Source: Acidobacteriota bacterium
Lineage (GTDB): Bacteria > Acidobacteriota > Terriglobia > Bryobacterales > Bryobacteraceae
Reading direction: 5' to 3'
NCBI GenBank assembly: GCA_016870915.1
Contig: VFZY01000027.1
Span: forward strand, 1-43,349
DNA length: 43,349 bases
Shown here one piece after another: positions 1,191 through 13,931 of this stretch. Every line of letters begins with the position of its first letter. Position 1 is the stretch's first letter. The notes under the pieces were generated by a model. It made no database searches. It saw nothing but the letters and a program-made list of their open reading frames with translations, and was not told the DNA's origin. The position numbers were made by a program, and so were the translations under genes.

Positions 1191-1928
1191 ATGAGTCTCG
1201 AAACAGTTGTCACCGAATTCAACCGCGACGGGTTCGCGGTGCTGCCGGCGTTCTTTTCGGCGGCGGAACTGGCTGCCGTGAACCTGGAGGTGGATCGCAT
1301 CATCGCGGGCCAGGCTGAGTACATGCCCGCCGAGGAACTGGCTTGGGAAAAGGACACGGCCCCTGGCACCCTTCGCAACGCGTTCCGGATGCACCGCTAC
1401 CACACAGCCTTCATGGATCTGGCACGGCATGCGCGGATGACAGAGGTGGCCGCGCGGCTGCTGGGCGCGCCGCTGCGGCTCTATGCCAGCCAGATGTTTG
1501 CCAAACAGCCACGCGTGGGCTCCGTGGTGCCGTTGCATCAGGACATGCCGTACTGGCCTTTCGACCCGCCGGAGATGATCACCTTCTGGATCGCGCTGGA
1601 TGAGTCGAGGCGCGAGAACGGCTGCGTAAGGTTCCTGCCGGGGTCGCATAGGCTGGGCCGGTTGCACCATGTGGCGTCCGGGGTGCACGGGAACTCGCTG
1701 CGAACGGAGGATCCACGGGTGGAGGGGCTGCCGGAAACCGCGATTGAGATCGAGGCGGGATCGATTTGCCTGCATCACGCGCTAGCGGCGCACCGCAGCG
1801 ACCCCAACACGAGCGACAAGCCTCGCCGGGGTCTCATCTACGTCTATATGTCGCCGGCGGTGCGGGTGACCGATGAGTCGAAGCTCCGTAAGCCGTACGA
1901 GTTTCCCGTTGTGCGGGAGTCCCTGTGA
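1191..1928 (+). CDS. phytanoyl-CoA dioxygenase (PhyH) family protein
   Basis: A 245-residue protein of normal length for the Fe(II)/2-oxoglutarate-dependent PhyH family, which hydroxylates or otherwise oxidises small organic substrates. The facial triad is visible: His116 and Asp118 in PLHQDMPYWP, and the distal His at about 201 in AAHRSDPNTS. Arg212 or Arg213 follows and is placed to bind the 2-oxoglutarate carboxylate. The segment ENGCVRFLPGSHRLG is the usual family signature between the two halves. There is no signal peptide, so it should be cytoplasmic. The gene starts three bases after the upstream stop, and its stop overlaps the next gene's start (GTGA), so translation of the two is probably coupled. 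The substrate cannot be deduced. Confidence 0.88.
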   Translation: MSLETVVTEFNRDGFAVLPAFFSAAELAAVNLEVDRIIAGQAEYMPAEELAWEKDTAPGTLRNAFRMHRYHTAFMDLARHARMTEVAARLLGAPLRLYASQMFAKQPRVGSVVPLHQDMPYWPFDPPEMITFWIALDESRRENGCVRFLPGSHRLGRLHHVASGVHGNSLRTEDPRVEGLPETAIEIEAGSICLHHALAAHRSDPNTSDKPRRGLIYVYMSPAVRVTDESKLRKPYEFPVVRESL

Positions 1929-3472
1929 TCCCGCGGCGCTATGTGCTGGGGGCGGTGGCGGGGGTGTTGCGAGGCGCCACCGTGCCTCAGCCGGGCATCG
2001 CGCTGAACGAAGACAACAGCCACTTCTTCTTCACCCGCGCCGGCAGGCCGCTCACGGAGGAGCTGGTGGACGCGCTTGTGGATCAGTACGCGGGCACGCA
2101 GGTGCGCGAGTTGCTGTTTTCGCCCAACTCCATGCGCACCAGCTTTGCGAGCCGTGTCTGGGATCCGATCTGGCGCGGCTACGATCCTGAGGGTGCCGAC
2201 GATCAGGCATTGCTTCGCAGCACCGCGCCCGCGGCCCGTGCCTCCGCGCGGCGCTGGATCCACACCGCATGGCAGTTGAATCGCGATGGCATCGATGTTT
2301 ACACCCGCTGGCTCAAGCGTGCACGCAGGCATGGCATCGCGGGCTGGCTTTCGATGCGCATGAACGATCTGCACAATGTCGATGACGAGCAGAGCTTCAT
2401 GCACAGTGAGTTCTGGCGCGCGAATCCGGGGTTCCGGCGCGTGACGCACCGTTTTTCAGGGACGACGGATCGCGCCCTGGACTACGGGCGCCCGGAAGTG
2501 CGCGAGTACCACTTGAAGCTGGTGCGCGAACTGGCGGAACGTTATGACTTCGATGGCCTGGAACTGGACTGGATGCGCTTTGGCTACCATTTTCAGCCGG
2601 GCCGCGAGTCCGCCGGCCGTGTGCTGCTGACCAACTTTACCCGTGAGGTGCGCGGCATTCTCAACCACTGGGAACAGCGGCGCGGCCATGCCATCCGCCT
2701 GGGGGCGCGCGTACCGTCGCGTCCGACAACGGCGCTGAACCTGGGATATGACCCCGTGGTGTGGTGCCGCGAGGGCCTGCTTGACATGCTGGTGGTGACG
2801 CCATTTTGGGCGTCGATTGAAACGGATCTGCCCATTGAGACCTGGAGGCGCGCGCTTGACGGCACGCGCACGGTCCTGGCGGCGGGTCTGGAACTGTTGA
2901 TCAGGCCTTATCACGAGTTCACGCCGCTTCAGACGAACTCACTGGAAACCGTGCGTGGCGCCGCGGCGGCCATGCTTGAGCGCGGCGCGGACCGGATTTA
3001 CCTGTTCAACTACATGGACTCCGAGACAGCGATCGAGCGTCTGGAGGATTACCCGGCGCTGCTGCGGCAGGTGGGGAGCCTTGAGACGCTGGCCGGCCGT
3101 GCGCGGCGCCACGTGGTGACGTACGCCGATACGTGGGCTCCTGGGGAGACGCGCGTCTCAACCCTGCCGGCGGACTTAAGACCCGGACAGTGGTGTGGCT
3201 TCCGGTTGGGCACGGGACCGGCGCCGGAGAGTGGCGGGGCCGAGGTCCGTCTGGTGTTCGACACGCCGTTTGACGGGGAGGTGCGGGTGAACGGCGTGCC
3301 CTGTTCCGCTGCGGGGCAGCGCGAACTGCCCAAGCCCGGTCCGGGGCGTCCCGCCCGCATTTTCATAGCGCCTGGTAGCGCGCTTGGCGCCGGCGACAAC
3401 GTGGTGGAACTGGCGCCTAAAACCGGCAACCGCCTCACCTGGCTGGAGATTGCGATCCCCGGCCGGGCCTGA
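1925..3472 (+). CDS. exported TIM-barrel glycoside-hydrolase-like protein
   Basis: A 515-residue protein starting at a GTG that overlaps the stop of the PhyH gene by four bases. The N-terminus has a twin-arginine-like signal (PRRYVLGAVAGVL), suggesting export. The central part reads like a TIM barrel of the glycosyl-hydrolase-like (GHL) type. The strand motif DGLELDWMRF at about residues 210-219 carries Glu213 and Asp215 as candidate catalytic acids, and other barrel strands end in VTPFW and IYLFNYMD. The last 130 residues look beta-rich (LVFDTPFDGEVRVNGV) and may be a carbohydrate-binding-like domain. Assignment to an exact GH family needs a profile search. The tight coupling with a PhyH dioxygenase suggests work on the same compound. 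Confidence 0.65.
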   Translation: MIPRRYVLGAVAGVLRGATVPQPGIALNEDNSHFFFTRAGRPLTEELVDALVDQYAGTQVRELLFSPNSMRTSFASRVWDPIWRGYDPEGADDQALLRSTAPAARASARRWIHTAWQLNRDGIDVYTRWLKRARRHGIAGWLSMRMNDLHNVDDEQSFMHSEFWRANPGFRRVTHRFSGTTDRALDYGRPEVREYHLKLVRELAERYDFDGLELDWMRFGYHFQPGRESAGRVLLTNFTREVRGILNHWEQRRGHAIRLGARVPSRPTTALNLGYDPVVWCREGLLDMLVVTPFWASIETDLPIETWRRALDGTRTVLAAGLELLIRPYHEFTPLQTNSLETVRGAAAAMLERGADRIYLFNYMDSETAIERLEDYPALLRQVGSLETLAGRARRHVVTYADTWAPGETRVSTLPADLRPGQWCGFRLGTGPAPESGGAEVRLVFDTPFDGEVRVNGVPCSAAGQRELPKPGPGRPARIFIAPGSALGAGDNVVELAPKTGNRLTWLEIAIPGRA

Positions 3473-3559: not shown

Positions 3560-5509
3560 TTGGGGCTGAAGCTGAACGACGCTGTGATACCGAACTGGGA
3601 CCCGGCTGAACGCTGGACCATCACCGATGCCGCCGAACTGTACGACGTGCACAGTTGGGGCAAGGGCTACTTTTCCGTGGGCCCCGGCGGCCACCTGCTG
3701 GTGCATCCCGACAAAGACCCACAGCGGTCCATTGATCTGAAGGAACTGATCGACAAGCTCGTTTTGCGCGGCATTGATCCGCCGCTGCTGTTGCGGTTCG
3801 GTGAAATCCTGAAGCATCGCATGGGTGAAGTTCACCAGGCATTCCAGAGCGCGATTTCCGAGCACGGCTATCGCGGCGACTACCGGTGTGTCTTTCCCAT
3901 CAAAGTGAATCAGCAGCGCCAGGTGGTGGAGGAGGTGTACGAGTACGGCAAGCCGTTCAATTTCGGGCTGGAAGCCGGGTCGAAGCCGGAACTGCTGGCG
4001 GTGCTGGGTATCGCCGGCAACGACACACCCCTGATTTGCAACGGGTTCAAGGACGACGAGTACATCGAAATGGTGATGCTGGCCCGCAAGATCGGGCGCC
4101 GCATCACGCCGGTGGTTGAGAAGTACACAGAACTCGACCTTATTCTGAAGTACGCAAAGAAGGTGGGCGTGCGGCCCGCCATAGGCATTCGTGTCAAGCT
4201 GGCCAGCCGCGGCTCAGGACGCTGGAAATCCTCAGGCGGCTTCCGGTCGAAGTTCGGCCTCACGGTGAGCGAAGCGCTGCAGGCCCTTGAGACACTGCGC
4301 GCCAACGGCATGGAAGATTGTCTGGAACTGCTGCACTTCCACCTGGGCAGCCAGATCACCAACATCCGCCAGATCAAGGGCGCGGTGATCGAGGCGGCGC
4401 GGATTTACGTGGACCTCAAGAAGTGCGGCGCCGGGTTGAAGTTCATGGACGTCGGCGGAGGCCTGGGCATTGATTATGACGGGTCGCAGACAGACTTCGA
4501 GTCGAGTGTGAACTATACGCTTCAGGAGTATGCCAACGACGTTGTCTATCACATTCAGAATGTCTGCGACGAAGAGAAGGTGGAGCATCCGTCGATCATC
4601 ACCGAAAGCGGACGCGCCATCGCCGCCTATCACAGCGTTCTGATTTTCAATGTGCTGGGCGTGAGCGGCTTTGGCGACGAAGACATCCACGTCGAGTTGC
4701 CGGCGGACGCCGAGCAGCCGCTGGTGGACCTGCTTGAGACGTACAAATCGCTGAGCCAGAAGAATCTGATGGAGGCGTTTCACGACGCCCAGCAGGCGCT
4801 GGATTCCGCGCTGAACCTGTTCAGCCTGGGTTACCTGTCGCTTGAACAGCGGAGTATGGCTGAGCAGATTTACTGGTCGATCAGCCGCCGTATTCAGCGC
4901 ATGGCGAAGCATCTGGATCCGTACCCCGAGGAGTTTGAGGGCCTGGACGCCACGCTTTCCGACACCTACTTCTGCAATTTTTCCCTGTTCCAGAGCATGC
5001 CGGACAGTTGGGCCGTGAAGCAGCTTTTTCCGGTGATGCCGGTGCACCGCCTGAATGAGCGGCCCACGCGCCACGCGGTGCTGGGCGATATCTCGTGCGA
5101 TTCCGACGGCAAGATCGACCAGTTCATTGACCGCCGCGACGTGAAGAAAACACTTCCGCTGCACCCATTCAACGGGGAAAGCTACTACCTGGGGGCATTT
5201 CTGGTGGGCGCCTACCAGGAGATTCTGGGCGACCTTCATAACCTGTTCGGCGACACCAATGCCGTGCATGTCAGCCTGAGCGCGAGTGGCGAAGTGCTGC
5301 TGGACGCGGTGATCAACGGCGACACGGTGGAGGAAGTGCTCGATTACGTTCAGTTCAGCGCGAAGTCCCTGAAGGAGCATTTCCGGAAGTCCGTTGAACA
5401 GGCGCTACGGGAAGGCCGGATCGGGTATGGAGAGTCCGGCGCGCTGCTTCGCTTCTACGAGCAGGGGTTGGACGGCTACACGTATCTCGAAGACACGCAC
5501 GAAGGGTAG
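3560..5509 (+). CDS. speA: biosynthetic arginine decarboxylase
   Basis: A 649-residue PLP enzyme, close to the 658 residues of E. coli SpeA. It decarboxylates arginine to agmatine, the first step of the agmatine route to putrescine and spermidine. The PLP lysine is Lys115 in FPIKVNQQRQVVEE. The barrel continues with LEAGSKPEL, SSGGFRSKFGL, LHFHLGSQ and the phosphate-binding glycine run DVGGGLGIDYDG. The C-terminal half has ITESGRAIAAYHSV. The ORF begins with TTG at 3560, preceded by GAGCGAGG (3543-3550) as a plausible ribosome site; the ATG at 3540 is out of frame. The stop abuts the stop of the convergent membrane protein (TAG/CTA at 5507-5512) with no spacer. Confidence 0.95.
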   Translation: MGLKLNDAVIPNWDPAERWTITDAAELYDVHSWGKGYFSVGPGGHLLVHPDKDPQRSIDLKELIDKLVLRGIDPPLLLRFGEILKHRMGEVHQAFQSAISEHGYRGDYRCVFPIKVNQQRQVVEEVYEYGKPFNFGLEAGSKPELLAVLGIAGNDTPLICNGFKDDEYIEMVMLARKIGRRITPVVEKYTELDLILKYAKKVGVRPAIGIRVKLASRGSGRWKSSGGFRSKFGLTVSEALQALETLRANGMEDCLELLHFHLGSQITNIRQIKGAVIEAARIYVDLKKCGAGLKFMDVGGGLGIDYDGSQTDFESSVNYTLQEYANDVVYHIQNVCDEEKVEHPSIITESGRAIAAYHSVLIFNVLGVSGFGDEDIHVELPADAEQPLVDLLETYKSLSQKNLMEAFHDAQQALDSALNLFSLGYLSLEQRSMAEQIYWSISRRIQRMAKHLDPYPEEFEGLDATLSDTYFCNFSLFQSMPDSWAVKQLFPVMPVHRLNERPTRHAVLGDISCDSDGKIDQFIDRRDVKKTLPLHPFNGESYYLGAFLVGAYQEILGDLHNLFGDTNAVHVSLSASGEVLLDAVINGDTVEEVLDYVQFSAKSLKEHFRKSVEQALREGRIGYGESGALLRFYEQGLDGYTYLEDTHEG

Positions 5510-8500
5510 CTACGCCTCTACTTTTCCGTCCCGCGCGGGATGCTTCCGGTTCACCAGATCGAAGAGCTTGAACGTTGTTGTGAACAGAGCCACCAGGCCG
5601 GCCCCCACCTGGCCCATTGTTTCAAGGGTCTTGTCGCCATTGCCCAACTGCACGGCGGCCACGGCCAGCAGGGCCAGTACCAGCACGTTGCGGATGGGGG
5701 ACCAGAGGCTCTCGCCGGATTCCTTCTCCCACTTTTCCACCGTTTCCGGCGCTTCGGCGGACCGAAGGAACTCAGCGAATGACTGGTTGAAGATTTGCGG
5801 CCTTGGGCAGGTAACCACCAATCCCAATCGCTCCAGCTCCAGCAGAACGGTCTTGCGCGCCGGGTTCACGAATCCGCTTGCCGCAAGCTGCACCAGGAGC
5901 AGGCGTTCGTGGCGGGCTCGCGAGGAGTAAAGCAGGCGGTAGTAGCTGGCAGTCCGTTCGCGGAGACGGCTTCGTGCTTCGCCCACATCCGCGGTCTCCT
6001 GTAGTGCGGCCGCCAGTTCATGGTAGATCTCGCGAAGCGGTTCGAGCGTGCGGCACTCTGTCCACAGTGCCCGGAGGGCCGGTGTTGAACCGGTTTCCGG
6101 TTCGTTGGCCGCGGATTCACCGTCTCCGGCTGCCTGGAAACGGCTCAGCACGCCATGCCAACGCTGCTTCTCAATGTCCGTCAGGGCGGCGCCGGCATCA
6201 GCGGATCCGAACAGTTCGTCGAAATGCAACAGGGGATTGACCGTGGCAGTCGCGATCAGGCGGTGCGCCGGGAAGCATGCGGCCGAGCCTCCGAGAAGAG
6301 CTTCGAGCAGTTCCAATGCAGCCGTACGTGCGGCGGGGGTGCGCAGAGCGGTGTCGAGATTGAGCAGCGCCACGTAGCTGGCGGCCGCGGGATGTGCGAT
6401 CCGGGCTAGCTTGAGCCGCAGTGCGGTGAGCGTTCGCTCCTGGCCTCCGGCGGGCAGGCGGCCGAGGTCGATCTCAGGTGGAACGAACCCAAGCTCTGCT
6501 TTCAGCGTCCGTTCGTGAGACTCAGGCAGGCCAAGCAGTAGAACAGGCGCGCTGCTGGCGCCGTTCACGGCGGATTGCAGCGTACTTCGTGGCGAGAAGC
6601 GATAGCCGATCAGAAAGATCAGGCGGTTTGTCTTAAGGATGTACATGTAGAGGACCCAGAGCGCGGCCACTGCCAGTGCGTACCACCGCGCGCTGCGAGC
6701 TGTGCTCCAGCTTGCGGGCTTCGCCAGCAAGACCAGGTCGTCCGACTCCGGCGTGCCGGAACCCCAATGCTTCAACTTTTGTTTGACAATAATGTCTCCC
6801 GTGCGATTCCAGGTGATTCCTCGACCCGGGGATTCGGTTTGACCGAGGTGGCCGGCGAGCAATTTCGGGAGCACCTCCAAAGCCACCAGGATCCTGTTCC
6901 CTGGGGGCTCCGCCAACTCATCCGGCTGGCCAGGGATCTGATCACCGGTGGGATCGGAGAGGAACTCCGTGTAATAGCGTAAGTGGGTCTTCAGCATCTT
7001 GGCTTGGTCAGGCTTGAACCTATTCTCCAGGATTTGTTGCGTTCCGGCGGAATAGATGGCCGGATTGTGAATCCGGTTCCAGATCGAATCCGACACACGA
7101 TCCAAGGAGGCGCCCACCTCCAGCGTGAGCGCCGCTGCCCGGAAACGGGAGATGTGATTGAAGCTCGCCTGGTGGAACGCACAGACTGGGAAAACCGCCA
7201 CGGCTATGTAAGTCAGTAGTATGTTCAACGCATAGAGCGGCAGAAAGGCGCGCCGTCTACCATTCGCCACAGGCTCCTTGCGCAGGTTCCAGATCACGAT
7301 CAGCACGGCAAGCATCGGAAGAAGGAACGCGGCGGCCACTAGCGTATCGTTCGCCAGCGTGCCAATGGCTCGGGTGGCGACCAGGATCCCAAGGGCAGTG
7401 GCGTTGAGTGCGGCCAGGCACGCGGCGATGGTGCAACACTCCCGCCATCGCCGGGCATCCGGCCACAATCGCGTGATGGTCTCCTGAAACCACCGCGTGG
7501 ATGGCGCTCTGCGATTCAGGCCCAGAATACAGACGGATCCCAGCAGGAACACCAGACTCAACGCCAGCACAAGCAGCCCCCATAGGATCACGATCCGTTT
7601 GGTGAGCCCCATCGCCTCGTTCTGAAGCGCCTCCAGATCCTGGAACACATGGATTGTCCAAGGTAACCCGGCAACGGCGGTTAAAGGCGCGCTGTAGACC
7701 AGGTATTCGTGGCCCCGGAACGCTTTCAGAGGCTCTGCCCGGCCACGGCCCACGGAAGCAAGCAAGCCCGGCGGCATGGCAGCGAGGTTCTCGGCAAACA
7801 TGGGATGATCGCTGGATAGAAGGACCGTTCCGGCACTATCCAAGACGGCGTAGTAGATTCCCGGTGGCAGCATCGGGTTGAACAGCGAGGCCGGATCGTG
7901 CACCGAACTCACGGTGACCGCCCGGTCCTTACGAAGAGACTCGCGCGTTACCACCCAAACCCTGCGCGCGGTTGTCGGTGACACCAGAAGTTCCGTCGTG
8001 AACGGCTTGCTGGCTGCACCCGTGATCGCCGCGAACCGCTTGCGCTGGAAACTCCGGAAGTTCGTAAACGCGGTCTGCACCACCGGCGCGGTGGGCACGC
8101 GCGCCGTTGTCCACTTTTCAATCTGCTCACCCTTTTCGTTTGTCCAAAAGATGAAGTCGAGGTCTCGAATCTGCTTTGCGTCGTTCTGGCTCAAGTGTTC
8201 CCAAAGATCAGAGATCGCCCAATTGTTGTAGGGCGCTCCCCATTTCGGAGCGATTCTGGGGCCGGGGTTGCGAGCGATGTTTTCGAACACCTCCAGTTGC
8301 TGAAGAATGACCGCAAAGGACTCTTTCAGTTCGTTGCTGATCGTGCCTTCGGTTTTTCTCAGGTGTTCGAGGACATGCCACCGCCGCTCGAAGTAGAACG
8401 GCCACGACACTGCCGTGAGAGTTCCAATCGACGCCGCAATCAGCGTGAATAGGAACAGCAGGACCAGATCGTGGGTGCCCAACCGGGCCGATGGGCGAAT

Positions 8501-9316
8501 GAATAACAGCTTTAGCATGGGCCCACTGAGTGCAACCAAGAGCAACAGCAGCGTCGCCCACAGAATCAGGCGAGGGGAAAGATGCCTGGCCTCCCGCTCA
8601 ATCTTTGACGCTTCCACCAGCCCCGCGACCATCAAAGTCTGTTGTCGCCCGTCCGCTGCCTCCAGCCAGAGCCGGACGGGCTGAACGAACACCGAGTATT
8701 CGATGCCGTGAAATCGGGCCTGCTGAAGATAGCCGGCGCCCGATTCCGGATGGTGATCCCCGGCCGGCTCCTCCCCGCCGCCGTGTGTGCCTTGCCTGGT
8801 TTTGTGGCCGGTGGTTAGGACTGACTCCAGGTTCAGGATCGTCGGCGCGGGAGATGACCTCTGATAGATGACGTCGCCTGAGTCCCTGGCCACCAGCACG
8901 TCGTCGAATCGCTGCTGACGGGCTACCGGGCTCATGAGCGCGTGGATGTTTCCATCCGCCTGATGCCCGCCCGCCGTGAACCAGATGCGCTCACCGTTCG
9001 TCCCGGTCCGGAATTCCACACGGACCGCGGTGCAACGCTCGCTCTTTTCCGGTCCCCGCCGGATGATCAGGTCGGGAATCAGCTCTCCGTTGATCGTGGG
9101 ATTTGCCGCAAGATCGCAGGTTTGGGCCAAAGCGCCACCCAGATTGTCCAACTTAGCCTTGATTTGGCGTCCGGCGCTGGCCAACTCGCGAAATCGCAAC
9201 TCGGTGAAGTAGTTCCGCCGCTCGGGGATGTGCTTGGCCAGATAGAACCAGCCCGCGGCGGCGGCGGCAAGTCCCGCCACGCCATAGGCGATCCACTTGG
9301 ACAGGTTGGGCTTCAT
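5510..9316 (-). CDS. large multi-pass membrane protein with two or three cache-like outer segments and a degenerate NTPase-like region
   Basis: A 1268-residue protein with no family I can name. Predicted membrane segments lie near residues 8-28, 249-273, 283-310, 573-600, 627-648, 657-677, 690-715, 877-893, 1208-1223 and 1229-1255. Between them lie extracytoplasmic-looking regions at about 30-245, 312-570 and 716-875. The second resembles a double-cache ligand-binding fold (GIYYAVLDSAGTVLLSSD, HEYLVYSAPL). The soluble part at 905-1205 has a strand-loop APVLLLGLPES at 923-933, where a Walker A would lie but without GK[ST]. YVALLNLD at 981-988 looks like a Walker B strand and LIATATVNP follows at 1020-1028. 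Residues 1135-1190 look like a winged helix (LAASGFVNPARKTVLLELERLGLV). It could be a receptor with a dead STAND-like ATPase. Function unknown. Confidence 0.55.
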   Translation of the reverse strand: MKPNLSKWIAYGVAGLAAAAAGWFYLAKHIPERRNYFTELRFRELASAGRQIKAKLDNLGGALAQTCDLAANPTINGELIPDLIIRRGPEKSERCTAVRVEFRTGTNGERIWFTAGGHQADGNIHALMSPVARQQRFDDVLVARDSGDVIYQRSSPAPTILNLESVLTTGHKTRQGTHGGGEEPAGDHHPESGAGYLQQARFHGIEYSVFVQPVRLWLEAADGRQQTLMVAGLVEASKIEREARHLSPRLILWATLLLLLVALSGPMLKLLFIRPSARLGTHDLVLLFLFTLIAASIGTLTAVSWPFYFERRWHVLEHLRKTEGTISNELKESFAVILQQLEVFENIARNPGPRIAPKWGAPYNNWAISDLWEHLSQNDAKQIRDLDFIFWTNEKGEQIEKWTTARVPTAPVVQTAFTNFRSFQRKRFAAITGAASKPFTTELLVSPTTARRVWVVTRESLRKDRAVTVSSVHDPASLFNPMLPPGIYYAVLDSAGTVLLSSDHPMFAENLAAMPPGLLASVGRGRAEPLKAFRGHEYLVYSAPLTAVAGLPWTIHVFQDLEALQNEAMGLTKRIVILWGLLVLALSLVFLLGSVCILGLNRRAPSTRWFQETITRLWPDARRWRECCTIAACLAALNATALGILVATRAIGTLANDTLVAAAFLLPMLAVLIVIWNLRKEPVANGRRRAFLPLYALNILLTYIAVAVFPVCAFHQASFNHISRFRAAALTLEVGASLDRVSDSIWNRIHNPAIYSAGTQQILENRFKPDQAKMLKTHLRYYTEFLSDPTGDQIPGQPDELAEPPGNRILVALEVLPKLLAGHLGQTESPGRGITWNRTGDIIVKQKLKHWGSGTPESDDLVLLAKPASWSTARSARWYALAVAALWVLYMYILKTNRLIFLIGYRFSPRSTLQSAVNGASSAPVLLLGLPESHERTLKAELGFVPPEIDLGRLPAGGQERTLTALRLKLARIAHPAAASYVALLNLDTALRTPAARTAALELLEALLGGSAACFPAHRLIATATVNPLLHFDELFGSADAGAALTDIEKQRWHGVLSRFQAAGDGESAANEPETGSTPALRALWTECRTLEPLREIYHELAAALQETADVGEARSRLRERTASYYRLLYSSRARHERLLLVQLAASGFVNPARKTVLLELERLGLVVTCPRPQIFNQSFAEFLRSAEAPETVEKWEKESGESLWSPIRNVLVLALLAVAAVQLGNGDKTLETMGQVGAGLVALFTTTFKLFDLVNRKHPARDGKVEA

Positions 9317-9355
9317 TCCAGTGGCGATCCCACGCTCCAGGAATTAGTGTCTGGC

Positions 9356-9422
9356 GGCTGTCATTCGAAACAGCCACGGCACATTTCACTAAAATCAACG
9401 CGCCGGAACGGGATTTTCCGTT
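9356..9422. other. two small inverted repeats in the 125-base gap between the MEMO gene and the large membrane protein
   Basis: GGCTGT (9356-9361) pairs with ACAGCC (9370-9375) over an 8-base loop, and AACGG (9407-9411) pairs with CCGTT (9418-9422) over a 6-base loop. On the minus strand they follow the stop of the MEMO gene and precede the start at 9316. Neither has a clear U-run, so they are at best weak terminator or operator candidates. Confidence 0.3.
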
Positions 9423-9441
9423 GGAATTTGAAGCCCGGCTC

Positions 9442-10662
9442 TTAGAAAGACCGGAAGTGCATCGCGGTGAACGAAACCACGCTTTCGGGATCGATTTGCC
9501 ACTGCTGATACCGCGCAACGGACCCCTTGGCGTGCGGCATCGCCTTCAGAAACGTATACAACGCCGATGATCCGCACCAGTTCAAGTCATCCTGGTTCCG
9601 CCGGACCATATCCCAATACCCAGACGCATCGCCCCCTGCGATGGCTGCCAGACGCCGGCGGTCCTGTTCCGCGATCTCGAGCATCCGCCCCTGGTTCTCG
9701 AACGCGGGTTCCTCGTCCTGGTAGCGCCGGCCAATATGCGCCAAATCCACTCCCAGAATGAACTTGAGGCGCCGCCCTTCACGTGCCGCCATGTTGCCCA
9801 ACGCATCGAAAAACCGGGTCGTTCCGGGCTGATCCTCGGGCATTCCCTGGCCCAGGTAGACGCTTCGCGCGAAGCTTCCCACCATCACGGGCACAACGCG
9901 CACGCCGGCGCCCAGCAAGTGCTGCAGGAACAGCACCTGAAACTCCACGGTGTGCTCGTAGGCGTGCGCGAAATCCTCCATGATCACGCCGTCGCCCGCG
10001 GCTTGGGCCAGTTCGTCCACCAGTGCCACTTCGGTGCGGGCCGCGCCCAATGGCGTGATGTAGTTCTTGCGCGTCAGCCCGAAGCGGTCAGGTTCGCCGC
10101 TGTGGGACGTGCCGAGAATGACGAAGACATCGTCGCGCATCTCCCGCGTCAGTGCCGCGTACGCATCGCGGTAGGACTCCCAGCCACCTTCCGGGCTGAC
10201 GTGCGGCGCCGCAATGGCGCAGAGGCTGGAGATTTCGGGCGCCGCGGCGCGATCCATGTAGCGGCGCATGGTTCCGCCCAACTCTTCGGGCTCTTCGGGA
10301 TAGGCGGCGCCGGCGTGCGCGGGCAGTCTTTCGGGGGTTGCCGCGAAGGCTTCATGAATCTCGTCGCGCAGGGCCTGGAACCGTTCGTTCTCCAGAAATC
10401 CGGCTTCGTCCAGCGCTTCGGCAAGCTGTCCCACAACCTCGCCCGCCCCAAGGTCACCGCCGGACATCTGGAACGCGGCGTCCTTCAGATCGCGTTCGGA
10501 GTGCTCGCCATCGAAGAAGCCCAACATGCCCACCAGGGGTGGCGGAATCAGCAGGGCCATGCCGGTGTAACGGCCGTCGCGCAGCAGCAGTCCGGGGCGC
10601 TCCTCATCGGGCGACGGCATCACTTCCAGGTCGGCCCGAAGGGCGGCCAGTGTTTGCGGCAT
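9442..10662 (-). CDS. MEMO1 / AmmeMemoRadiSam system protein B family protein
   Basis: A 406-residue protein whose C-terminal 270 residues match the MEMO1 family, related to class III extradiol dioxygenases. Putative metal or active-site residues are His154 (AAPHVSPEGGW), His187 (GTSHSGEPD), His237 (AYEHTVEFQ) and His309 (GVDLAHIGRR), with a Cys in LNWCGSSALYT. The first 130 residues are an extra domain (LLRDGRYTGMALLIPPPL) found in the longer bacterial members. In many genomes this protein is accompanied by an AMMECR1 protein and a radical SAM enzyme; neither is in this window. It diverges from the AraC-type regulator, and TACCAT lies exactly six bases before its ATG, suggesting a leaderless mRNA. 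The cellular role of bacterial members is not established. Confidence 0.85.
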   Translation of the reverse strand: MPQTLAALRADLEVMPSPDEERPGLLLRDGRYTGMALLIPPPLVGMLGFFDGEHSERDLKDAAFQMSGGDLGAGEVVGQLAEALDEAGFLENERFQALRDEIHEAFAATPERLPAHAGAAYPEEPEELGGTMRRYMDRAAAPEISSLCAIAAPHVSPEGGWESYRDAYAALTREMRDDVFVILGTSHSGEPDRFGLTRKNYITPLGAARTEVALVDELAQAAGDGVIMEDFAHAYEHTVEFQVLFLQHLLGAGVRVVPVMVGSFARSVYLGQGMPEDQPGTTRFFDALGNMAAREGRRLKFILGVDLAHIGRRYQDEEPAFENQGRMLEIAEQDRRRLAAIAGGDASGYWDMVRRNQDDLNWCGSSALYTFLKAMPHAKGSVARYQQWQIDPESVVSFTAMHFRSF

Positions 10663-10668
10663 TCTCCG

Positions 10669-10674
10669 ATGGTA
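10669..10674 (-). promoter_or_regulatory. -10-like box TACCAT six bases before the MEMO start
   Basis: Minus-strand TACCAT, then CGGAGA, then the ATG at 10662. Transcription starting about seven bases after the box would begin at the start codon. No convincing -35 is visible. GGAG inside the gap is too close to the ATG for a normal ribosome site. Confidence 0.45.
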
Positions 10675-10702
10675 GCGTGTGTGCCGCGTTTGCCGCGCGC
10701 GC

Positions 10703-10708
10703 TACACT
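10703..10708 (+). promoter_or_regulatory. -10-like box TACACT six bases before the AraC-type regulator start
   Basis: TACACT is followed by six bases and a GTG at 10715 that is in frame with the ATG at 10721. This is the arrangement seen in front of several other genes here and supports a leaderless start at 10715. Confidence 0.4.
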
Positions 10709-10714
10709 GTGGTG

Positions 10715-11485
10715 GTGCCGATGCGGTTTGAGCAGCGATCGCCCTCCCCGGCTTTGGCCGCGGTGGTATCCCGCTTCTGGCAAGTGGAGGGACACCCGGG
10801 CGGCGAAGAGCAGATTGTACCCGACGGCCGCACCGAGATTGTCTTCCATCTGCACCCAACGCCGGAACGGGATGATGGGGATGGCGCAGTTTACCAGCCG
10901 CCGGCGATGCTGGCGGGCCAGATTGACCAGGCGTTGACACTGCGGATGCCCGTGGGTTTAGCCGCTTTCGGCATCACTCTGCGGCCTGAAGCTTCCGGTC
11001 TGGCGCGCATTCCGGCCGCGGACCTTGCGGGCCGGTTCGAGGCCATTGAGGACCTTTTTGGCGCCGGCGCCGCACGCTGGCGTGACCGCATTGAGCACGC
11101 TCGCGGCTTCGATCATCGCGTGAGCATCAGCGAGACCTATCTGGCGGCCCTGGTGCCAGCCGCCGATCCACGCGTCCGGGCCGCGTGCCAACACCTGAGC
11201 CTGGGCGCCTCCATTGACCGGGCGGCCGCGCAGGCAGAGATCGGGCGCCGCCAGTTGGAGCGGCTTTTCCTCCGCCAGGTGGGCGTTGAGCCGAAGCGCT
11301 ACGCCCGGATCGTGCGTTTTCAGCGAGCGCTGCGGGCCAGGCAGAGCGGGTTGGCGTGGGCTGAGGTGGCGCTGGAAGCCGGCTACTACGATCAGTCCCA
11401 CCTGATTGCGGACTACCGCGTGTTTGCCGGCCGCACGCCGGCATCCCTGACCCTTACGCCGTTCAGCCACGCACTCACGGCCTAA
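10715..11485 (+). CDS. AraC-family transcriptional regulator with DUF6597-type N-terminal domain
   Basis: About 256 residues. The N-terminal 130 residues (FWQVEGHPGGEEQIVPDGRTE) resemble the DUF6597 sensory domain of AraC-type regulators. The C-terminal 100 residues hold the two helix-turn-helix units: ASIDRAAAQAEIGRRQLERL, then RQVGVEPKRYARIVRFQ and LAWAEVALEAGYYDQSHLI, ending FAGRTPASLT. It should bind DNA in the cytoplasm. The frame is open back to a GTG at 10679, but that would leave only 16 bases to the divergent MEMO gene. I prefer 10715 (GTG) or 10721 (ATG) because of the TACACT box. Its divergent position makes the MEMO gene a possible target. Confidence 0.88.
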   Translation: MPMRFEQRSPSPALAAVVSRFWQVEGHPGGEEQIVPDGRTEIVFHLHPTPERDDGDGAVYQPPAMLAGQIDQALTLRMPVGLAAFGITLRPEASGLARIPAADLAGRFEAIEDLFGAGAARWRDRIEHARGFDHRVSISETYLAALVPAADPRVRAACQHLSLGASIDRAAAQAEIGRRQLERLFLRQVGVEPKRYARIVRFQRALRARQSGLAWAEVALEAGYYDQSHLIADYRVFAGRTPASLTLTPFSHALTA

Positions 11486-11556
11486 ACTGGCGCCATGCCG
11501 CGAGGTCGCATTTTTCCAAGATCGCCGGGCGTCTCCTGGCCTATCCTGAACCCAAG

Positions 11557-12009
11557 ATGATTTTCAATCTCATGGCCGCCTCAATCCTTTTTGCCGCCGA
11601 GCCCGGCGTCTCTGACCTTTCCTTCTTCTCCGGCTGTTGGGAGATCCGCTCCGGGGCGCTTCTTGTGGAAGAAGCCTGGTCGTCCGCCACGGCGGGCACG
11701 CTCTTCGGCTGGAGCCGTACCATTCGCGACGGCAAGACCGTGCAGTGGGAGTTGATGCGCATCGAGATGAAGGATGGCAAGCCGGTCTTCGTCCCGTCGG
11801 TTTCCGGCTCCGAGAAGCCGGTGGAGTTCAAGGCTGTCCGATCCTCGGCCACCGAAGTAGTTTTCGAGAACCTTGCCCATGACTTTCCGCAGCGCATTAT
11901 CTACAAGCGCAATGGCGCCGATCTGGACGCCCGCATTGAGGGCACCATCAAGGGCCAGGCCCGCGGCAAGGACTTTCCCTACAAACGCGTCGCCTGCGCC
12001 GGCCGTTGA
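11557..12009 (+). CDS. DUF6265-family small secreted protein
   Basis: A 150-residue protein with a short hydrophobic leader (MIFNLMAASILFAAEP), suggesting export. The core has the features of the DUF6265 family, a lipocalin-like small beta protein: GCWEIRSGALLVEEAWS, GTLFGWSRTIRDGK, FENLAHDFPQRIIYKR. Function is unknown. TATCCT lies nine bases before the ATG. Its last 31 bases overlap the end of the convergent DinG-like helicase gene, an unusually deep tail-to-tail overlap that leaves no room for a separate terminator. Confidence 0.75.
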   Translation: MIFNLMAASILFAAEPGVSDLSFFSGCWEIRSGALLVEEAWSSATAGTLFGWSRTIRDGKTVQWELMRIEMKDGKPVFVPSVSGSEKPVEFKAVRSSATEVVFENLAHDFPQRIIYKRNGADLDARIEGTIKGQARGKDFPYKRVACAGR

Positions 12010-13931
12010 TCGAAGAACCGCTCGACGGCGCCTAGATTGGTGGTGAAGTCGTAGTCCGGCAGACTATCGAAAAAGATCTGTCCGTACCGTGTGCGGGTGA
12101 TGCGGTTGTCCAGCAGCACCAGGACGCCGCGATCAGTCCGGGCGCGGATCAACCGTCCGAAGCCCTGCTTGAGAGCGATGGCCGCTTGGGGCACCTGGTA
12201 GTCGAAGAACGGATTGCCGCCGGAGTCCCGAATGGTGCGGATGCGTGCTTCCACCACCGGGTCATTGGGCACCGCGAAGGGCAGCTTGTCGATGATCACG
12301 CAACTTAGTTGCTCGCCCTGGACATCCACGCCCTGCCAGAAGGAGGCGGATCCGAACAGCACGCAGTTGGGCGTGGCGCGGAACTGTTCGAGCAGCGCGT
12401 TCTTCGGCGCCTGGCCCTGCAGAAGCACGGGGTATTCCAGGAACGCGCTCACGCGCTCATGCACAAGGCGCATCTGCTGGAAGCTGGTGAACAGAACAAA
12501 GGCCCGTCCCTGGCTGGCCTCCAGAATGCGGAGAACTTCCTGCGCCGCCGCCGCCGCGAACCCATCGCTGCGCGGGTCCGGCAGATGCTGGGGTACGTAG
12601 AGCAGGGCCTGCACCGGATAGTCGAACGAACCCGGCACCACCAATGTTCGGGCCGCTCGCAAGCCCAGCCGCTGTTGCAGGAACTGGAATCCGCCCTCCA
12701 CAGCGAGAGTGGCCGAGGTGAGCACCACGGTGTCGATTTCGTCGAATAGCCGCTCGGTGAGCAGTGCGGCCACCTCGATTGGTGTCGCCTGCAGTGAGGT
12801 GGTCCGGTTGCGGCGTTCGATCCAGTAGACGAACCCGGGGTCCGATGCCTCCATCCAGAAACGGATGCAGTGCGCCATCTCACGCGCACGCCGGTGCAGG
12901 GGGTGGATCTCCTCCGGCGCATCCTTGATCAACTGAAGATGCGATGACACCAGTTCCAGCGCGACGGTGAGATCATCGAACGCCTGTTGGTTCTGCACCA
13001 GCCACGCGTGCTGGCCGCTGAACCCCGCCCGGCCCTCGGTCTGCCCGAACAACGCGAAAAAGCGTTCGGACATCTCTTCGAGCGTCATCAGAATCCGGTC
13101 CAACTCGGTTGAACCCAGGTTCTTCCGCCGCGACGTCGCAAGAACATCGCGCTTCAGTTCCGAGATCTGATAATTGCTCACGGCGAGCCCGAAGTACTGC
13201 CCGGCGACATCCTCAATCTCGTGGGCCTCGTCGAAGATCACCGCGGTATAGGCCGGAATCACCGCGCCATGTTCCTCCCGCTTCAGCGCCAGGTCGGCGA
13301 AGAACAGATGGTGATTCACGATGACGATGTCGGCCTCAGCGGCGCGCCGCTGCATCTCCGTGACGAAGCAGCGTTCGTGCTGCGGACACTTCTGGCCGGT
13401 GCACAGGTCGCGCCGCGCGTCCAGTTTGGCCCAGGCTGTTGAGGACTCCGGCAGATCCTTGAGCTCGGCTCGGTCGCCGGTTTGGGTGTTCTGCTCCCAG
13501 TCGCGGATGATCTTGAAGTCGCTCACTTCCTCAAGACCGGTGAGGATGGGTTCCTTGTCCGCGTCGTACACCTTCTGGCGGCACAGGTAGTTCGCCCTGC
13601 CCTTCATGTACGCCACCCGGAGCCTGTTGTCGAAGTGCTGCTGAAGGAACGGAACGTCCTTGTAATAGAGCTGTTCCTGCAGGTTTTTTGTGCCGGTGGA
13701 GATCACCACCTTGCGGGCCGAAAGGATCGCTGGAATCAGGTAAGCCAGTGTCTTTCCGGTTCCCGTTCCGGCCTCAACTACCAGGTGCTTCCGCTCGCTG
13801 AGCGCGGATTCCACCGCTTCCGCCATCTGGAGCTGCCCCTCACGGAACTCGTAGTTCGGATGCCATTCCGAAAGAATGCCCCGGCGCGCGAAAAACTGGC
13901 GCGCCGTCAGGACTTGGGCGGGGGGCTGCAT
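11979..13931 (-). CDS. ATP-dependent DNA helicase, DinG/XPD-like (iron-sulfur superfamily 2)
   Basis: A 650-residue helicase. Walker A is EAGTGTGKT at residues 53-61 and the DEAH box is at 234-237 (VIFDEAHEIED). Four cysteines at 117, 177, 182 and 188 (YLCRQK, RDLCTGQKCPQHERC) match the 4Fe-4S cluster domain of DinG and XPD. C-terminal motifs include VVLTSATL, VLFGSASFWQGVD and the QGFGRLIRARTDRG arginine-finger motif VI. Such enzymes unwind DNA 5' to 3' and resolve R-loops or forked DNA. There is no exonuclease domain, unlike the DinG of many Firmicutes. TAAAAT lies 15 bases before the ATG as a possible -10 box. Confidence 0.92.
   Translation of the reverse strand: MQPPAQVLTARQFFARRGILSEWHPNYEFREGQLQMAEAVESALSERKHLVVEAGTGTGKTLAYLIPAILSARKVVISTGTKNLQEQLYYKDVPFLQQHFDNRLRVAYMKGRANYLCRQKVYDADKEPILTGLEEVSDFKIIRDWEQNTQTGDRAELKDLPESSTAWAKLDARRDLCTGQKCPQHERCFVTEMQRRAAEADIVIVNHHLFFADLALKREEHGAVIPAYTAVIFDEAHEIEDVAGQYFGLAVSNYQISELKRDVLATSRRKNLGSTELDRILMTLEEMSERFFALFGQTEGRAGFSGQHAWLVQNQQAFDDLTVALELVSSHLQLIKDAPEEIHPLHRRAREMAHCIRFWMEASDPGFVYWIERRNRTTSLQATPIEVAALLTERLFDEIDTVVLTSATLAVEGGFQFLQQRLGLRAARTLVVPGSFDYPVQALLYVPQHLPDPRSDGFAAAAAQEVLRILEASQGRAFVLFTSFQQMRLVHERVSAFLEYPVLLQGQAPKNALLEQFRATPNCVLFGSASFWQGVDVQGEQLSCVIIDKLPFAVPNDPVVEARIRTIRDSGGNPFFDYQVPQAAIALKQGFGRLIRARTDRGVLVLLDNRITRTRYGQIFFDSLPDYDFTTNLGAVERFFDQRPAQATRL

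Follow-up and report, generated by a model that had tools for sequence, protein, structure and literature searches.

What does a bacterial receptor signal through when its sensor is Cache-like and none of the customary output domains can be found in the same chain? This question is raised by a gene in a 43,349-nucleotide stretch of Acidobacteriota DNA (contig VFZY01000027.1 of assembly GCA_016870915.1; hereafter the window, which is the entire contig, from a parent genome of 6.6 Mb). The gene is an open reading frame (ORF) that runs on the minus strand from an ATG at position 9316 to position 5510 and encodes 1268 amino acids. We read its product as an undescribed type of receptor in which dCache sensors would drive a STAND-like cytoplasmic switch, 'undescribed' resting here on limited searches; our rough probability that it is a dCache receptor signalling through such a module, with the window copy acting independently of nucleotide, is 0.55. 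The first-pass annotation of this DNA had proposed a cache receptor with a degenerate NTPase-like output in place of a histidine kinase, GGDEF or methyl-accepting chemotaxis protein (MCP) domain, and both structure prediction and the P-loops of relatives support that proposal. To it we add the closest fold of the output (STAND), a protein family, and loss of the P-loop under continued selection in relatives.

STAND proteins, the class of NLRs, CED-4 and MalT, usually read cytoplasmic signals. A Cache-STAND fusion would link solute-type sensing to the switch class of NLRs and apoptosome proteins.

The receptor gene and its predicted dCache sensor

The ORF looks coding: GC at the three codon positions is 0.64/0.47/0.74, the third-position value lying slightly below that of three other window genes (0.78–0.80), and every 200-codon block has a third-position GC of 0.70–0.81. 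A known-family identity over the full length was tried and rejected. No model in Pfam or NCBIfam matches the protein, whether of a known transporter or of a sensor family (the sole Pfam row, a microprotein family at E 0.24, is below the cut-off), and Pfam places no HisKA/HATPase_c, GGDEF or MCP domain in it, as had been annotated. The protein is not the orphan it was first taken for, since full-length relatives exist at 25–29% identity. We read 32 members from 30 genomes, of which 24 are Acidobacteriota (by named relatives) and 6 belong to the order of Ca. Brocadia (anammox).

Ten hydrophobic segments were found by hydropathy, where about ten had been counted before; they start at residues 9, 250, 285, 575, 628, 658, 696, 876, 1204 and 1237. 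The family-averaged content of lysine and arginine (K/R) in the loops, 0.12–0.24 on the predicted inner side and 0.04–0.15 on the outer side, fits an N-in topology with outer regions at residues 29–247, 304–574 and 715–875 and a cytoplasmic region at 895–1203, which holds no hydrophobic segment. By this average the large outer regions, earlier put at 'two or three', would number three; the window protein alone is less clear, as its loop ranges overlap (inner 0.14–0.31 vs. outer 0.07–0.31). In 31 of the 32 members 8–13 transmembrane (TM) segments are predicted, the remaining, contig-cut member having 7. The membrane segments C-terminal to the cytoplasmic region number two in 17 members and one in the other 15. 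The layout is as follows.

5510..9316, minus strand: whole receptor ORF, 1268 amino acids (ORF call and relatives)
9236..9292, minus strand: TM1, residues 9–27 (hydropathy)
8576..9232, minus strand: outer region 1, distantly Cache/PAS-like, residues 29–247 (hhalign)
8513..8569, minus strand: TM2, residues 250–268 (hydropathy)
8408..8464, minus strand: TM3, residues 285–303 (hydropathy)
7607..8404, minus strand: outer region 2, predicted dCache sensor, residues 305–570 (Foldseek, VIA, Pfam in relatives)
7538..7594, minus strand: TM4, residues 575–593 (hydropathy)
7175..7435, minus strand: TM5–TM7, residues 628–714 (hydropathy)
6692..7171, minus strand: outer region 3, residues 716–875 (model confidence partly low)
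6635..6691, minus strand: TM8, residues 876–894 (hydropathy)
5552..5707, minus strand: C-terminal TM hairpin, TM9–TM10, residues 1204–1255 (hydropathy and loop K/R)

The cache-like outer region of the first annotation corresponds to residues 305–570, in the extracytoplasmic loop between predicted TM3 and TM4. Their model matches PctA (5t65_B) at a Foldseek E of 4.2e-7, and in VIA, a re-ranking of Foldseek's own list, reaches a best Z of 15.1 (8w7p_A; 226 residues aligned at a root-mean-square deviation (rmsd) of 3.5), which supports a predicted dCache fold. Of the 15 sequences in set A2, which comprises the window protein and 14 relatives, 8 have a Pfam dCache_1 match at E ≤ 0.1, the best at E 2.3e-12; the window protein itself has none. 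None of the 6 Pfam families listed for A2 is a histidine kinase, MCP, GGDEF/EAL, cyclase, phosphatase or kinase output. A PDB sequence search with the full-length profile gave weak rows only (KinD, E 0.051).

Structure searches with residues 1–900 were filled by the dCache domain (all 50 VIA rows shown overlap it) and hardly probed outer regions 1 and 3. Outer region 1 is probably a diverged Cache/PAS-like domain, judged by hhalign against the dCache region (probability 69.5, E 4.3e-5 for a single comparison); the other four comparisons gave probabilities of at most 0.35. Outer region 3 shows no hhalign profile similarity to outer region 1 or 2.

Fold of the cytoplasmic module

An AlphaFold2 (AF2) model of residues 897–1268, built on a 9-row alignment, has strands at 925–928, 948–950, 981–985 and 1019–1022 that alternate with helices; helices, a winged helix (~1111–1187) and a C-terminal helical hairpin follow. 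The first-pass annotation had named the lack of a Rossmann-like core at residues 905–1100 as one outcome that would count against it; an α/β core is predicted at 925–1022, and the winged-helix-like region that it described also appears in the model.

6131..6559, minus strand: predicted P-loop-like α/β core, residues 920–1062 (four strands in the AF2 model)
5714..6124, minus strand: predicted helical domain and winged helix, similar to those of STAND proteins, residues 1065–1201 (VIA Z 9.6 to RPP1, rmsd 4.2 over 134 residues)

The top 17 VIA rows (about ten different proteins) are all STAND-type, with Z of 6.3–9.6: RPP1 (9.6), PABY2304 (9.1), WRR4A (8.9), 6mfv, a STAND protein with a TPR sensor (8.0), Roq1 (7.8), SSO1545 (7.4) and CED-4 (7.3), then wheat G10, NRC2 and Dark. 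SSO1545 and PABY2304 are entries that we take to be STAND-type. VIA itself cautions that models of this kind commonly reach a best Z of 7–8, and the agreement among the rows therefore counts for more than the Z values. With moderate confidence, we assign the module a STAND-like fold in the order core, helical domain, winged helix.

Several points weigh against this assignment and the mechanism built on it. Model confidence is modest (predicted local distance difference test 67.5, predicted template modelling score 0.41). PABY2304 aligns with the whole module, from core through winged helix (15–290 of the 372-residue model), at an rmsd of 10, and most STAND rows are limited to the helical and winged-helix part (model residues 169–306). 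VIA rows confined to the core have Z of 5.0–5.4, the best being RNase J, a non-P-loop protein, with ClpX and Cdc48 nearby. The best Foldseek E is 0.018, the first rows being ORC/Cdc6 proteins, with spastin and Avs4 among the top rows. Searching 12 members against Pfam at E ≤ 10 brought up no STAND family, and neither PDB sequences nor PADLOC gave a STAND profile match; such searches can miss remote relatives. The selection test below covers relatives only, the window copy having no close relative. Finally, no signalling neighbour was found to recur in Acidobacteriota (25 sources), and a dCache-type gene lies downstream in 3 of 6 anammox loci, one small clade (a full kinase in two). Because no sequence search backs STAND membership, we speak of a 'STAND-like' module and stop short of classing it as a STAND protein.

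The Foldseek list raises the alternative of an ORC/Cdc6-like cytoplasmic part, a winged-helix AAA+ type other than STAND. ORC/Cdc6 proteins are Foldseek's top two rows and come after the STAND rows in VIA (Z 5.1–6.1), but the 17 best VIA rows are all STAND-type and where an ORC row covers the entire module its rmsd is 14–18; we regard this as very unlikely.

The winged-helix region holds most of the best-conserved cytoplasmic columns (QLA.dG.vNP ... MNESFRRF), as would be expected if the protein were a membrane-bound one-component transcription regulator comparable to ToxR and CadC, with a winged helix that binds DNA and an α/β region that is a mere spacer. MarR/OhrR winged helices occur among the structural rows (Z 5.0–5.3), and four short members lack most of the α/β core and retain the C-terminal part. 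However, membrane segments lie C-terminal to the module as well, STAND proteins, whose winged helix is usually no DNA reader, match better (Z up to 9.6), three relatives have an intact P-loop, and cores without a P-loop are under selection. A regulator of this kind is thus unlikely.

Walker motifs and P-loop loss in the family

The annotated strand-loop lacking GK[ST] is present at G929–R936, and the description of the region as degenerate NTPase-like is well borne out, as three relatives keep an intact P-loop at the aligned site. The Walker-B-like strand lies where it had been placed, at residues 981–988, but its first Asp is replaced (L985; D in relatives such as L010), leaving D988 as the only acid kept.

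6509..6532, minus strand: degenerate Walker A, GLPESHER, residues 929–936 (aligned with GEPCSGKS, GNPKSGKS, GPPLSGKS)
6353..6376, minus strand: degenerate Walker B strand, YVALLNLD, residues 981–988 (L010, L055 and L070 read hhhhDHFE)

GxxxxGKS is kept in 3 of the 32 members (GEPCSGKS in L010, GNPKSGKS in L055, GPPLSGKS in L070), all with DHFE at Walker B. Another three (both L009 copies and L053) have SGKD with SNLE at Walker B, and in the remaining 26 the Walker A site is degraded, deleted or, in L011, interrupted. Five of the six anammox members read DHFE or DHLE at Walker B. A check of conservation at residues 923–933 and 981–988, suggested with the first annotation, gave a divided result: the site can still be made out in the longer members, 78% of rows having P931, and most of the catalytic letters are gone. 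Four short members (L051, L063, L066 and L069; about 950–1060 amino acids, with L063 cut at its contig start and a stop inside L066) have lost almost all of the core and keep the sensors and the C-terminal part. The two SGKD copies of L009 (8179–16148) are tandem duplicated receptors in one genome, both with SNLE in place of DHFE.

In a maximum-likelihood tree, supported branches force at least 4 changes of the 'degraded' P-loop label. On the inference that a P-loop is never regained, several of these would be independent losses. Cores without a P-loop nevertheless stay under purifying selection in three lineages: the ratio of nonsynonymous to synonymous substitution rates (dN/dS) of the core is 0.22, 0.29 and 0.42 in anammox pairs, 0.21 in L061/L067, and 0.24, 0.27 and 0.22 in L056/L057/L060, seven pairs from these three lineages only. 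Among L056/L057/L060 the core is more constrained than the sensors (0.40–0.53), and in the anammox pairs the reverse holds. The core of the SGKD tandem pair has a dN/dS of 0.53. The outer regions of L061/L067 are close to synonymous saturation, and a comparison of L063 with L066, which was stitched across its stop, is void beyond the dCache region. Repeated P-loop loss with a selected core provides an intact-to-degraded series of homologues in which a STAND-like module can be studied without nucleotide.

The genome of the window carries a second family copy (L011, contig C154, 1738–5274) with one in-frame TAG (919 + 250 amino acids), perhaps a recent pseudogene or a split gene. This broken copy, and the long branch of the window copy (1.45), might indicate that the window gene too is a decaying relic on its way to a pseudogene, with motif loss as part of the decay. 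We consider this highly improbable: the window ORF is open across 1268 codons with the third-position GC given above throughout, its dCache, TM and winged-helix pattern is kept, and P-loop-less relatives are under purifying selection.

In the order core, helical domain, winged helix of its model, in its best structural rows and in the intact P-loop of three relatives, the module resembles STAND NTPases (RPP1, CED-4, Apaf-1, MalT, PABY2304). In contrast to them, the window protein has its sensor N-terminal and extracytoplasmic, its module is tethered to the membrane at both ends, and it shows neither a Walker A motif nor a sequence-profile match. KAP P-loop NTPases are membrane-associated as well, with TM segments inserted in the NTPase domain; in the window protein such segments are found on either side of the module, with none between its Walker motifs.

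The predicted dCache fold of residues 305–570 is that of PctA/PctB, DctB and KinD (dCache_1, PF02743), from which the window protein differs in its three outer regions and ten TM segments. Cache domains are described as the largest superfamily of extracellular sensors in prokaryotes in the title of a survey (PMC4822843), and the abbreviation list of its Table 1 gives as outputs MCPs, histidine kinases, c-di-GMP enzymes, serine phosphatases, cyclases, Ser/Thr kinases, transcription factors and ion channels. The output of the window protein falls in none of these classes, the list includes no NTPase or STAND class, and no word of the survey begins with 'ATPase' or 'NTPase'. The STAND-like module shares its worn nucleotide-binding motifs with the inactive STANDs, iSTAND and iSTAND2, which PMC7159879 and PMC8195603 place in MoxR-vWA ternary systems and other conflict systems. 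The window gene differs in having no MoxR or vWA gene among the 10 neighbours scanned, and the module it encodes is fused to a dCache receptor. No Cache-STAND fusion was found in the titles and abstract openings listed by the literature searches, whose coverage leaves aside most subscription papers and bioRxiv preprints. The receptor thus appears to combine known parts in a way not found in the literature searched, with moderate confidence for the inner fold.

Proposed signalling route, distribution and gene neighbourhood

We propose a receptor of the cytoplasmic membrane whose STAND-like module is tethered to the membrane at both ends. The dCache domain would bind a small solute, and the signal would reach the cytoplasmic module via TM4–TM8. 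Where relatives keep an intact P-loop, exchange of nucleotide may gate a switch between open and closed states, as in other STAND proteins. In the window copy, where Walker A and the leading acid of Walker B are gone, the module would need no nucleotide hydrolysis; it would act as a conformational scaffold that responds to ligand and binds a partner through its winged-helix face. The partner is most likely another signalling protein such as a histidine kinase, to judge by the dCache protein gene directly downstream in three closely related anammox members. In one of them (L094) a dCache-HAMP-HisKA-HATPase kinase starts 6 bp downstream; L093 has the corresponding dCache histidine kinase, and L073 a dCache gene that runs off its contig. 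Other genes lie downstream in L095 and L100, and in L099 the contig ends. Along the L094 locus (4220–12187) the same-strand dCache histidine kinase is followed further on by a receiver-PAS-histidine kinase.

More tentatively, the family could be a transmembrane counterpart of NLRs, in which a STAND module embedded in the membrane, under the control of extracytoplasmic dCache sensors, would seed an assembly with signalling or membrane activity; many members would then be nucleotide-independent pseudo-STANDs, and the output class would be one not previously described for Cache receptors.

Two pairs of close relatives differ in where they vary. L061 (6287–10765) and L067 (6234–10424) come from related, syntenic genomes with outer flanks 85–91% identical in DNA (downstream, one stretch is 73% identical and one unaligned). 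The aligned part of their sensor half is 66% identical (protein 41–78% in 100-residue blocks), and their last ~200 residues are 94–98% identical, as though the sensor part had undergone exchange or diversification. In L093/L094 the variable part is the helical/winged-helix region, not the sensors.

Divergence of the L061/L067 sensor half, far above that of the outer flanks and the C-terminus, is one of the features that an NLR-like conflict receptor might show, in which the C-terminal membrane segment(s) would act as a membrane-perturbing effector released or assembled on STAND-like switching. The STAND-like fold, the one or two C-terminal membrane segments (two in 17 of 32 members, one in 15) and a scattered occurrence, in 25 of the 237 genomes searched from the family-level group, also fit such a receptor. 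Yet no defence-type gene occurs among the 10 window neighbours scanned, and of 12 members run against PADLOC one gave a single weak row (E 0.025). A plasmid-borne origin was rejected, with no relative at E 1e-5 in 72,556 plasmid records (query P0004 of L010), as was a virus-borne one, with 67 viral-contig stretches matching the pattern and 0 confirmed. The pattern of variation in L093/L094 points the other way as well, and dCache domains usually sense solutes. We consider a conflict role quite unlikely, and keep to the solute receptor with a STAND-like switch.

A protein search gave matches in 3 of 61 genomes, and a profile of four members (A1) gave the 25 of 237 in the same family-level group and 4 of 396 in a phylum sample, the own genome being included in each count. 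Four of the 25 (G006, G023, G188 and G245) had short or partial matches and were excluded from the members read; members cut by contig ends include L010, L058, L059, L060 and L063. A scan of named genomes found 9 loci: 7 acidobacterial (titled Acidobacteria, Solibacteraceae, Ca. Solibacter, Bryobacterales, Terriglobia and Ca. Sulfopaludibacter), 1 titled Acidimicrobiia and 1 in a metagenome-assembled genome (MAG) of Ca. Brocadia (6-kb contig). The Acidimicrobiia locus (L076) has the same receptors as G031, a genome of the window's family, and the title of its MAG is probably a mislabel. With a C-terminal profile, 4 of 246 genomes of the Brocadia phylum matched (G653, the MAG itself, and three others), and in the Brocadia order 6 of 62 did, two of them in addition to those four. 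One of the matches lies on a contig of 4.03 Mb. This recurrence argues that the Brocadia match is not a stray contig. In 396 phylum genomes the C-terminal module was not found outside the full architecture: the search returned four genomes with the full-length family (that of the window included) and one extra weak 70-residue match with an internal stop.

In the window, the receptor gene converges with an arginine decarboxylase gene (3560–5509). It had been described as alone in its transcription unit, a description put in doubt by a Memo-like gene on the same strand (9442–10662) that ends 125 bp upstream. A pattern scan found no promoter-like or terminator-like site in that gap, an absence that is hardly informative, since chance alone would give 0.1 and 0.3 of them. 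No MoxR, vWA or defence-type gene was found among the 10 neighbours scanned, which are of ordinary kinds and include an AraC-type regulator, a helicase and beta-propeller proteins, and the window holds no structured RNA or tRNA genes. A conserved Acidobacteriota operon was rejected, since on clustering the neighbours from 25 sources the largest clusters occur in 7, 8 and 6 of them and none reaches half; two of these were identified, a TonB-type outer-membrane protein and a sulfatase. The canonical P-loop member with GEPCSGKS (L010, 1–14000) lies beside the type VI secretion genes tssK, tssB, tssC and tssA. A link to type VI secretion was rejected, with 0 of 40 scanned neighbour proteins of other loci being a component of that system. 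Finally, at window positions 1191–3472 a PhyH dioxygenase adjoins a gene with a weak match to glycosyl-hydrolase-like 10.

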